The notes under the pieces: generated by a model
Seen by the model: the letters and a program-made list of their open reading frames with translations, nothing else
Told to the model about the DNA's origin: nothing
The model's database searches: none
Assembly (NCBI GenBank): GCA_022825855.1
Contig: JAJDWB010000002.1
Location: forward strand, 62,001 to 126,000
Direction of reading: 5' to 3'
Origin: Dehalococcoidia bacterium
Lineage (GTDB): Bacteria; Chloroflexota; Dehalococcoidia; Bin125
DNA length: 64,000 nucleotides
In this document: positions 29,597 to 44,504 of the stretch, in pieces
How the letters are laid out: every line of letters starts with the position of its first letter
Position numbering within the stretch: the stretch's first letter is position 1
Position numbers and translations under genes: made by a program

Positions 29597-29673
29597 TGGT
29601 GGGCCCTCTGGGACTCGAACCCAGGACTTTCGGACCAAAAGCTCGCTGCCCTGGCCTACTGGGCTACGGGCGC
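29597..29673 (-). pseudogene. Decayed tRNA-Lys (TTT) copy
   Basis: A 77-base tRNA-like sequence of the same length as the tRNA-Lys at 31415. The 3' 31 bases, including the T arm and encoded CCA, are identical between the two. The 5' part has decayed: acceptor mismatches C2-C71 and G7-A66, and a broken anticodon stem (GCGAG against TCCGA). The anticodon position still reads TTT. Confidence 0.75.
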
Positions 29674-31414: not shown

Positions 31415-31491
31415 TGGTGGGCCCTCTGGGACTCGAACCCAGGACCTTCGGATTAAAAGTCCGCTGCTCTGGCCAACTGAGCTAAGGGCCC
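31415..31491 (-). tRNA. tRNA-Lys (anticodon TTT)
   Basis: A 77-base cloverleaf: acceptor GGGCCCT/AGGGCCC, D arm GCTC...GAGC, anticodon loop CTTTTAA on the CGGA/TCCG stem (anticodon TTT), T arm CTGGGTTCGAGTCCCAG and an encoded CCA. All stems are intact apart from the usual weak 27-43 pair. It reads away from the divergent reductase gene that begins at 31533. Confidence 0.96.
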
Positions 31492-41834: not shown

Positions 41835-42923
41835 TTAGCCAAACGTGTTGCCGCGGCTGCGGAACGTGTCGATGCCGAGGCCGTCTCGCCACTTGGCCGA
41901 TTCCTGGCGGGAGAACGGATCGAGGGGGATGCCGCAGCCGTCGGCGATGCGGACCATGCGCTGGAAGTTGGCGATCGTTGCGGCGCAGTCGACCACGGCG
42001 TCGGGGCCTATCTCGGCGTTGAGCGCCTCACGCGCCTGGGCGAGATCCGCGGTGCGGCCGACGGCCGCGTCGGAGTAACGCAGCAGAGCTTCCCCGTGCT
42101 CGACGCCGCTGTCGACCTCGTTGAACACGGTGCCGTTCAGGTTCAGCGCGTCGTTGTCCTGGCTGCTCCGACCGAGCAGCATCACGTGGGAGATCGTTCA
42201 ATAGAAGCACTCGTTGAGGGCTGAGACGCGGGCCGCGACCAGCTCGCGCTGGGGCCGGCTAAGCACGCGGTACGGTTCCTGTTCGGCCCCGATCTCGACC
42301 CAGCTCAGGTAGTGGGCGTCGAACAGGTCGCTGAGCCAGCGGACGCTGTCGGGATGCAGGCTCATCGCCGCGCGCACGTTGGCGGTGCGCTCGCTGCCGC
42401 CGTAGATGTCGGCTTCGGGCGCATCGAGATCCTCGGGCAGGATCGTCAACGGCCAACTCCCGTGGTCCTTCGCGCCGGCGGGACGAGTCTGCGTCGGAGC
42501 GCCGGGCAGCGGGTCGGGCAGGGGTTCCAGCTCGATCTCCAGGGCGCGGTGGAACTCGTCGATCGACCAGACGTGCACGACGACGCCGAGCAGCTCGATG
42601 TAGTGCGCGTCGGACATGCCCTCGGCGCTGATCGTCTCGTCGTACCACTCGCGGGTCACGTTGGGCAGGTCGCCGATCAGCTTGTGTACGGCGAAGGCGG
42701 CGGCGTCGGGCAACTCGGCCGGGCCCGGCCCGGGATCGGGCAGGCCGTCGACCAGCGCGGAGGCGCGGCGGCATTCGGCGGCAATGCTGATTCGCTCCGC
42801 GCCGGTCCACCATTCGCCGGGCTCGGCCAGCATCGTCCAACTGCGGCGGTGGGCGGCGGCCATGCGCTCGAGCACGGGCCAGGACGTGTCGCGGTAGGCG
42901 AACGGGGCGGTCATCGTGGTCAT
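41835..42923 (-). CDS. AhpD-like selenoprotein (second gene of tandem pair; UGA read as Sec242)
   Basis: Read through one in-frame UGA (42200-42198), this frame gives 362 residues. The UGA falls in E227-x11-C239-x2-U242-x3-H246 (NECFYU then TISH), which matches exactly the Glu-Cys-Cys-His spacing of AhpD (E118, C130, C133, H137 in M. tuberculosis). After the UGA, 120 residues continue with family sequence, including ANFQRMVRIADGCGIPLD. A hairpin follows the UGA (see SECIS entry). Family members are peroxidases or thiol-disulfide partners. Start: ATG after CAGGGAG. The paralogue ends 38 bases upstream, so both form one operon. Conventional calling would give two separate genes. Confidence 0.88.
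42162..42200 (-). promoter_or_regulatory. Predicted bacterial SECIS element with UGA (gene A)
   Basis: The UGA at 42200-42198 is followed after 17 bases by GCTGCTC-GGTCG-GAGCAGC, a perfect 7-bp stem with a 5-base loop starting GGU. The loop starts 24 bases after UGA, inside the known 16-37 window of bacterial SECIS elements, whose loops carry a conserved G. Confidence 0.78.
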
Positions 42924-42961
42924 CGCGGGCTCCCTGCTTCAGGTCAGTCCAAGTTGCGGCT

Positions 42962-44020
42962 CTAGGCCGTGTTGGCGGCCGAGGCGAATGCGTGCAGGCC
43001 GAGATCGTCGCGGACGTCGTCGGTGGCGTCGCGGGTGAACTCGTCGAGGGGGATGCCGCAGCCGTCGGCGATCCGCACCATGCGCTGGAAGTTGGCGACC
43101 ACGCCGGCGGCGTCGACCAGTTCCTGCGGGCCGAGTTCGGCCGCAATCCGCTCGCGCAGACCGGGCAGCGCGTCGGTCCGGCGGACGGCGGCTTCGGCGA
43201 ACGCGGTCAGCAGGCTGCCGTGGGGGACGCCGGAATCGGAGCCGGGATCAACCGCGCCCTGCAGGTTGAGGCTGTCCAGGCTGCCGCTTCGCTTGCTGCT
43301 CTCACGGAGCATGCGCACGTGCGAGGCGGTTCAATAGAAGCACTCGTTGAGCGCCGAGACGCGCGCCGCGATCAGCTCGATCTGCGGTCGCGAGATGGCG
43401 CGCAGCGGGTCGGGTTGGCGCATCTCGGCGAAGGACAGGTAGTGGCCCTCGGACAGGTCGTGCAGCCAGCGCACGTTCTCGGGGATCAGCGAGAGCGCCG
43501 AGATCACGTTGGCGCCCCAGTCCAGGGGGCCGTAGAGCATCTCGTCGCCGGGGTTGAGGCCATCCTTGGGGACGATCGGCGGCCAGGAATAGCGCTGATC
43601 GGCCTGTGCCGGCCGCTCGCGGGTCGGTTCGCCTGAAGCGGACTCGGGCAACGGCTCCAGTTCGAGGCCGAGGGCGCGGTGGAACTCGTCGATCGAGAGC
43701 GCATGCACGACGACGGCGACGAGCTCGACGTAGCGGTCCTCGGTCATGCCCTCGGACGCGACGGTTTCCTCGTACCACTCGCGGCTGAGGTTGGCGTTGT
43801 CGACGACCAGCTTCTGGATTGCATAGACGGCGGCCTCGGGCAGGAGTTCGGTCGTGGGCGCGTCGAAGTCTCGCGCAGCCCGGGCGACGCGGGCGATCTC
43901 GACTCGTTCGGCGCCGGTCCACCAGCGGCCGGGGTTGGCGATGATCTCCCAGCTCTGCCGATGGGCGTCAACGGTCTTCGGTCGGATCGGCAGGTCGGTA
44001 GCGGCGTATGCGAAGGGCAT
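42962..44020 (-). CDS. AhpD-like selenoprotein (first gene of tandem pair; UGA read as Sec230)
   Basis: From the ATG of MPFAYAATDLPIRPK, preceded by GAGAGGGA, the frame gives 352 residues through one in-frame UGA at 43333-43331. The motif is E215-x11-C227-x2-U230-x3-H234 (NECFYU then TASH), the AhpD pattern with Sec as second redox residue. The N-terminal ~180 residues form a related helical half (WWTGAERVEIA, SREWYEETVASEGM) without CxxC. The post-UGA 122 residues align with the paralogue throughout. The two genes are colinear paralogues with 38 bases between them. The substrate is unknown; a hydroperoxide- or thiol-linked role is inferred from the fold. Confidence 0.88.
43295..43333 (-). 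promoter_or_regulatory. Predicted bacterial SECIS element with UGA (gene B)
   Basis: The UGA is followed by a hairpin TGCTC-CGTGA-GAGCA (5 bp), extended by a GC/GC pair beyond a bulged A. The 5-base loop begins 24 bases after UGA, exactly as in gene A, although the surrounding sequence differs. Confidence 0.72.
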
Positions 44021-44504
44021 CGCGAATCCCTCTCGTGGTCTCGGGCAAGGGTAGTGGCTTGCCGGTCGGCATGCGGATCGAGTCGGAAGGACCGGCGGAA
44101 GCCGCAAGCCCCTCACCCCGCCGTGGTCGACTTTGCAACCTGGACCACTCGCCGTCTGTACATAGAACTCATGTCCATATACGATGGCCCCAACAGGCTC
44201 ACGTCGCAACGCAAGGAGACCCCGGATGACGCCCCGACACCACCGACAGCCAGACGCCCGTGTTCGTCCGGAATCGAACAGATCCGAACAAACGAGACCT
44301 GAAGAAACCTGAAAAAACCTGAAAAAACCTGAAAGCCCCGGCGCTCAGAACCCAGTGTTTTACGGGAGATCTGCCCTGATCCGGCCCGCGAAAAAAATTC
44401 CGCTGAAACCTGAATCCCCGCCTCCGTCTTTCTCGGCAACAGAGGGCCGGAAGGGGCGCTGCTAGCCTCCGCTTGAGCTTGACCAGGACTGAGCGGAGGA
44501 CACT
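44021..44504. other. Divergent intergenic region with dispersed repeat
   Basis: A 484-base spacer between the selenoprotein operon (minus) and the enoyl-CoA hydratase (plus). The first ~120 bases should hold the selenoprotein promoter; an A/T-richer patch (TACATAGAACTCATGTCCATATACGATG region, 44158-44186) is a candidate. The right part holds the second copy of the dispersed repeat. No gene is seen. Confidence 0.6.
44258..44420 (+). repeat. Dispersed intergenic repeat with 10-bp tandem units, copy 2
   Basis: Same order of elements as 19663-19818: CCGAACAAAC, three 10-base GAAAAAACCT units (44301-44330), a CAGTGTTTTACGGGAGATCTG box, CGAAAAAAATTCC, and a closing GAAACCTGAATCCCC. The sequence between the boxes has diverged. 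Confidence 0.65.

Follow-up and report, generated by a model that had tools for sequence, protein, structure and literature searches.

The closest described relatives of the two genes analysed here belong to a family introduced in 2005 as "hypothetical protein 1" of the Sargasso Sea, which then comprised four sequences and was given no function (PMC1088965). In a 2026 review it appears as a CxxU protein under the name "AhpD-related protein (hypothetical protein 1, Sargasso Sea metagenome)" (PMC13188914). NCBIfam represents the family by the model NF041238 (AhpD_rel_CFYUT), which has a length of 357 and a curated cut-off of 175 bits. In view of the NCBIfam entry and these two papers, neither the family nor its motif is new, and its members were already known to be selenoproteins.

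AhpD-type proteins such as PA0269, DR AhpD (6k40) and YP_296737.1 (2prr) are single-domain proteins which form dimers or hexamers and carry a five-residue Glu-Cys-Tyr-Cys-His relay on a helix hairpin. In PA0269 this relay is composed of Glu36/Cys48/Tyr50/Cys51/His55 (PMC3141380). Other proteins include two AhpD-fold domains in one chain. These are the Sestrins, pseudodimers built from two AhpD domains (PMC4674687), and bacterial fused-AhpD analogues of Sestrins, for example proteins of Corynebacterium ureicelerivorans and Comamonas aquatica, whose catalytic cysteines are found only in the C-terminal domain (PMC11429811). No link between the Sestrins or fused AhpDs and the NF041238 selenoproteins was found in the open full texts searched.

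Two adjacent read-through genes of the NF041238 family

The window, a stretch of 64,000 nucleotides from a Dehalococcoidia genome, carries two neighbouring genes, called A and B, each with a single in-frame TGA. Their features are as follows.

42962 to 44020, minus strand: gene A (upstream copy), predicted AhpD-related selenoprotein of 352 aa, Sec codon 230 in NECFY-U-TASH, from the read-through translation
43331 to 43333, minus strand: in-frame UGA of gene A (candidate Sec230)
44028 to 44034, minus strand: Shine-Dalgarno-like GAGAGGG ahead of the gene A ATG, read from the sequence
41835 to 42923, minus strand: gene B (downstream copy), predicted AhpD-related selenoprotein of 362 aa, Sec codon 242 in NECFY-U-TISH, from the read-through translation
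42198 to 42200, minus strand: in-frame UGA of gene B (candidate Sec242)
42930 to 42935, minus strand: Shine-Dalgarno-like AGGGAG ahead of the gene B ATG, read from the sequence
43331-44209 and 42962-43318: the ORFs called in gene A with table 11
42198-42923 and 41835-42185: the ORFs called in gene B with table 11

The genes are paralogues whose products share 52% identity along the chain, and the two UGAs align with each other. Each UGA is followed by 120–122 conserved residues before the stop codon (TAA in gene B, TAG in gene A), and the spacing E-x11-C-x2-U-x3-H is exact, involving E227, C239, U242 and H246 in gene B. ORF calling with table 11 returns two ORFs per gene, four in total. The original prediction had already described from the DNA two adjacent paralogues with one TGA each at an identical motif position, the Glu-Cys-Cys-His spacing of AhpD, about 120 homologous residues beyond each TGA as far as a TAA or TAG, and four truncated genes in the output of a gene finder. 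The genes are separated by 38 nt, and this short gap together with their conserved adjacency suggests that they are co-transcribed as an operon. The region showed no sigma-70-like promoter.

Both proteins match NF041238 over nearly its full length (365 bits, E 3e-109, profile span 1–357 of 357 for gene A; 343 bits, E 2e-102, profile span 3–357 for gene B) and include the CFYUT motif with UGA at the Sec position. They score above the gathering cut-off of Pfam CMD (PF02627; 25.5 and 31.4 bits, cut-off 23) and, together with the AhpD folds matched in the PDB (below), this agrees with their earlier description as AhpD-like. Scores remain below the cut-offs of the classical AhpD model TIGR00777 (12.8 against 191.95, gene A only) and of the peroxidase-related model TIGR01926 (36.7 and 31.7 against 81.8). 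The original prediction had also supposed that a tandem with so long an N-terminal half might be unrecognised, and here it has to be corrected: the long form is NF041238, nearly from end to end. The present additions are the conserved adjacent pair and the Sestrin-like two-domain structure, while the family itself is already catalogued.

Named relatives stem from MAGs of Dehalococcoidia/Chloroflexota, of Rhodospirillaceae and other Alphaproteobacteria, and of marine Acidimicrobiales; Marinomonas sp. MED121 has a Cys form. Genes A and B share with the Sargasso Sea family the near full-length match, the place of the CxxU and an occurrence in marine lineages, but differ in that two divergent copies adjoin in a conserved order. 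In contrast, alphaproteobacterial genomes, searched one by one, contain 2–3 copies on separate contigs, each with one TGA, and their proteins have a CxxC in the N-terminal half which is missing in genes A and B. The motif of these members (L081-L086, L093, L094) is N[RQH]CVY-U, with no Glu right before the Cys.

Short AhpD-like selenoproteins (~200 aa) of other Chloroflexota resemble genes A and B in having a UGA at the equivalent second Cys, with the same E-x11-C-x2-U-x3-H spacing, but they consist of one domain and score below the NF041238 cut-off. Such short one-domain TGA proteins (e.g. NRCRY-U-LSSH; L052-L077) are common across Chloroflexota and are sometimes present in several copies per genome.

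Probable decoding of the in-frame UGA

The genome includes tRNA-Sec with the anticodon UCA (TCA in DNA), selA (513 bits), selB (344 bits) and selD (352 bits), and so contains every component of the Sec machinery that the original prediction had singled out for a search. Within the genus sample, selA occurs in 13/13 genomes and tRNA-Sec lies above the cut-off in 12/13. The selD gene has an in-frame TGA within its own frame (LARCGG-U-GSKFGPEG; L019:1501-2442; G000 C13:217544-218485). Selenoprotein forms of SelD are known in many bacteria, and the SelD of the source genome is probably one of them.

A SECIS-type hairpin follows the UGA in each gene.

43295 to 43314, minus strand: hairpin of gene A, GC(A bulge)TGCTC-CGTGA-GAGCAGC, shared by all 13 A-type copies
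42162 to 42180, minus strand: hairpin of gene B, GCTGCTC-GGTCG-GAGCAGC, from sequence and folding

Both are formed by a 7-bp stem GCUGCUC/GAGCAGC (with one bulged A in gene A) and a 5-nt loop C/G-G-U-N-N, which starts 24 nt past the UGA. As in the bacterial SECIS model (PMC13188914), a G is present in the first two loop positions (GGTCG / CGTGA) and the distance is suitable. The stem (with at most 1 mismatch) and an NGU loop codon are found in 36/36 distinct UGA copies, which represent three phyla (with Dehalococcoidia, Alphaproteobacteria and Acidimicrobiales), and in 0/2 of the Cys homologues examined. In the neighbouring genes, 7% of Arg codons are CGT and 9% of Gly codons are GGT. Of the synonymous recodings, 0.4% for gene B and 6.4% for gene A are as stable when folded; taken alone, the gene A hairpin is only moderately better than its synonymous recodings. 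When B-type copies are aligned with those from Alphaproteobacteria and Acidimicrobiales, 95.7% of the stem cells are paired, compared to 29–58% with a slid partner, and stem covariation is weak to modest, a single pair having changes in both of its bases.

It could be argued that the UGAs are true stops, which would make the genes either two pseudogenes that arose in parallel or genes that naturally end at NECFY, with separate or dead downstream ORFs. The four truncated frames of standard ORF calling and the presence of GTG codons just past each UGA are in line with this. The substitutions are not: between gene B and its counterpart L024 they number 8/10/41 by codon position before the UGA and 4/3/18 after it, and in the orthologue comparisons changes before and after the UGA alike are mostly third-position, which indicates that the downstream part is a protein under purifying selection like the part before it. 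Moreover, wherever orthologues of A and B occur in the family, they retain their single TGA. The NF041238 members checked also share one TGA at this codon, without exception in Dehalococcoidia and Alphaproteobacteria and with few exceptions in Acidimicrobiales. Marinomonas and another acidimicrobial have Cys instead. Alignment with such Cys homologues, as the original prediction had proposed, places Cys in the UGA column, and homologues ending naturally at that codon were looked for without any being found, since relatives have either a read-through UGA or Cys there. Given also the full Sec machinery of the genome, true stops appear vanishingly improbable. Pseudogenes and nonsense mutations are ruled out by conservation and by the codon-position pattern, and the earlier argument that two such mutations would hardly arise by chance is strengthened by the TGA kept in orthologues, the third-position substitutions and the conserved hairpin. 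Reading of the UGA as something other than Sec, for instance as Trp or Cys through a near-cognate tRNA or recoding, is very improbable: tRNA-Sec(UCA), selA, selB and selD are all present, a SECIS-type hairpin is located at the right distance, and the aligned residue in non-UGA homologues is Cys. With the Sec machinery complete, we found no support for such a reading. We infer from these sequence comparisons that Sec is inserted at the UGA of both genes.

A predicted Sestrin-like chain with an AhpD active site

Two domains can be delimited in the product of gene B.

42504 to 42878, minus strand: N-terminal domain, residues ~16-140, a predicted degenerate AhpD fold without CxxC, from hhalign and the model
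41889 to 42386, minus strand: C-terminal domain, residues ~180-345, a predicted catalytic AhpD domain with E227, C239, Y241, U242 and H246

The profiles of the N-terminal and C-terminal halves align colinearly in hhalign, with an E value of 0.0009–0.0014 (for a single comparison) and a probability of 18–23%; for the kinship of the halves the fold result, as predicted by modelling, carries more weight. The AlphaFold2 model of gene B (pLDDT 86, pTM 0.89) has human Sestrin2 as its best whole-chain match (Z 17.8, ~245 residues at 3.2–3.3 Å, model residues 2-333), and single-domain AhpDs reach Z ~12 while covering little more than the C-terminal half. When the N-terminal half is modelled alone (pLDDT 91), its 12 best PDB matches are all AhpD-fold proteins (Z 6.8–9.3), and the next has Z 4.0. 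A CxxC in the N-terminal half (e.g. CAYC, CEFC) is kept in Alphaproteobacteria and Marinomonas, near the position matching CFYU, and is lost in the Chloroflexota and Acidimicrobiales copies. In these models the long N-terminal half looks like a degenerate second AhpD domain, and the whole chain like a pseudodimer with a Sestrin-like fold.

The alphaproteobacterial members combine an N-domain CxxC and a C-domain CxxU in one chain. Such a polypeptide may be redox-active at two places, at a Cys-Cys pair and at a Cys-Sec pair.

Genes A and B resemble the Sestrins (human SESN2) in having two predicted AhpD-fold domains per chain, and the bacterial fused-AhpD analogues in confining the catalytic residues to the C-terminal domain, but both of these groups have Cys where genes A and B would have Sec. 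The active Cys125 of Sestrin lies in the N-terminal domain, whereas the CxxU of genes A and B lies in the C-terminal domain. The C-terminal domain of Sestrin also carries a DDYDY hinge for GATOR2 (PMC11429811), which is not found in genes A and B; that of gene B keeps CFYU with E227 and H246. The absent hinge rules out membership of the Sestrins proper and therefore limits the claim to proteins that fold like a Sestrin. A more extensive proposal is that the tandem pair constitutes a bacterial Sestrin-like redox sensor, in which the N-terminal domain, relieved of catalysis, interacts with a ligand or partner in the manner of Sesn-C in animals, and is coupled to a Sec peroxidase in the C-terminal domain, and that NF041238 is the Sec branch of the fused-AhpD lineage that gave rise to Sestrins. 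We regard this as highly doubtful.

The relay residues E227, C239, Y241, U242 and H246 are invariant in 19 homologues. The relay of PA0269 maps onto them without gaps, the AhpD-like proton relay Glu-x11-Cys-x-(His/Tyr)-Cys/Sec-x3-His is present, and the helix hairpin is shared with the single-domain proteins described above, which have Cys and not Sec. By analogy, the proteins probably reduce alkylhydroperoxides by thiol/selenol chemistry. In the proposed mechanism, UGA would be decoded as Sec by SelA, SelB, SelD and tRNA-Sec(UCA), directed by the hairpin loop 24 nt downstream. The N-terminal domain, which has lost its CxxC, would probably be structural or regulatory, and the C-terminal domain would hold the Glu-Cys-Tyr-(Sec)-His relay. 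If the chemistry follows that of the homologous AhpD, the selenol of U242 would attack an organic hydroperoxide (or a disulfide), C239 would resolve U242 as a selenenylsulfide, and a thiol donor would reset the enzyme.

The same selenoproteins might nevertheless perform another chemistry. They might, for example, dehalogenate reductively, as does Bmp8, a debrominase with the AhpD fold, or take part in thiol-disulfide exchange with a dedicated partner. The single-domain folds nearest to the model include Bmp8 (6ohi/6ohj; Z 12.6–12.7), although its identity is just 14–15%, no more than that of other AhpDs. Deiodinases use Sec, and some relatives presumably derive from metagenomes of sponges (one record bears the name Spongia_Bin9); relatives in planktonic Acidimicrobiales, however, speak against a sponge-halogen role. 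Since the AhpD proton relay is also preserved in full, we consider another chemistry unlikely, though worth bearing in mind. The explanation as a whole, namely selenoproteins with a SECIS-type hairpin and a Sestrin-like two-domain AhpD structure, with peroxidase chemistry assigned by homology, appears highly probable to us.

Conservation and surroundings of the pair

Members of NF041238 above the cut-off are present in 14/20 genomes of the source's GTDB family. Judging from the listed coordinates, two copies lie side by side in 12 of these 14; the exceptions are G014, with copies on two contigs, and G005, with a single copy. In the tree, all 27 family copies keep the UGA, A and B form separate, fully supported clades within the genus, and the two copies of a sister genus (G017) fall outside these clades with weak support. 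The duplication is therefore at least as old as the genus.

In the window the neighbours are a riboflavin operon, an enoyl-CoA hydratase gene and a CoA-transferase gene. The flanks are kept in two relatives (L078 and L080), with the riboflavin operon on one side and the enoyl-CoA hydratase on the other. In other lineages the neighbours are amidase, aldolase, hydantoinase or exonuclease genes, and no convincing functional theme is common to the neighbours in the window and in these lineages. None of the plasmid records searched for relatives carries one, and there is no PHROG match. An alpha/beta-hydrolase gene lies between gene A and the enoyl-CoA hydratase gene in the two relatives (L078:1019-1810; L080:1048-1848). 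It is missing from the window, where the gap (44021-44504) is short and includes, upstream of gene A at ~44297-44340, short direct repeats of ~11 nt (CCTGAAAAAAC-like); these might be a scar left where the hydrolase gene stands in the relatives. Elsewhere in the window, two tRNA-Lys(TTT) genes (29597-29673 and 31415-31491) are found on the same strand within 2 kb.

What appear as four broken gene fragments can thus be understood as two complete selenoproteins, probably Sec-containing at the same codon. They extend a known marine selenoprotein family to a family of Dehalococcoidia, in which it is present as a fixed, ancient tandem duplication. The models would also provide NF041238 with a structural identity, that of a two-domain AhpD pseudodimer with a Sestrin fold and Sec in one of its domains, and a selenium-dependent, Sestrin-like enzyme would now be open to direct biochemical testing.
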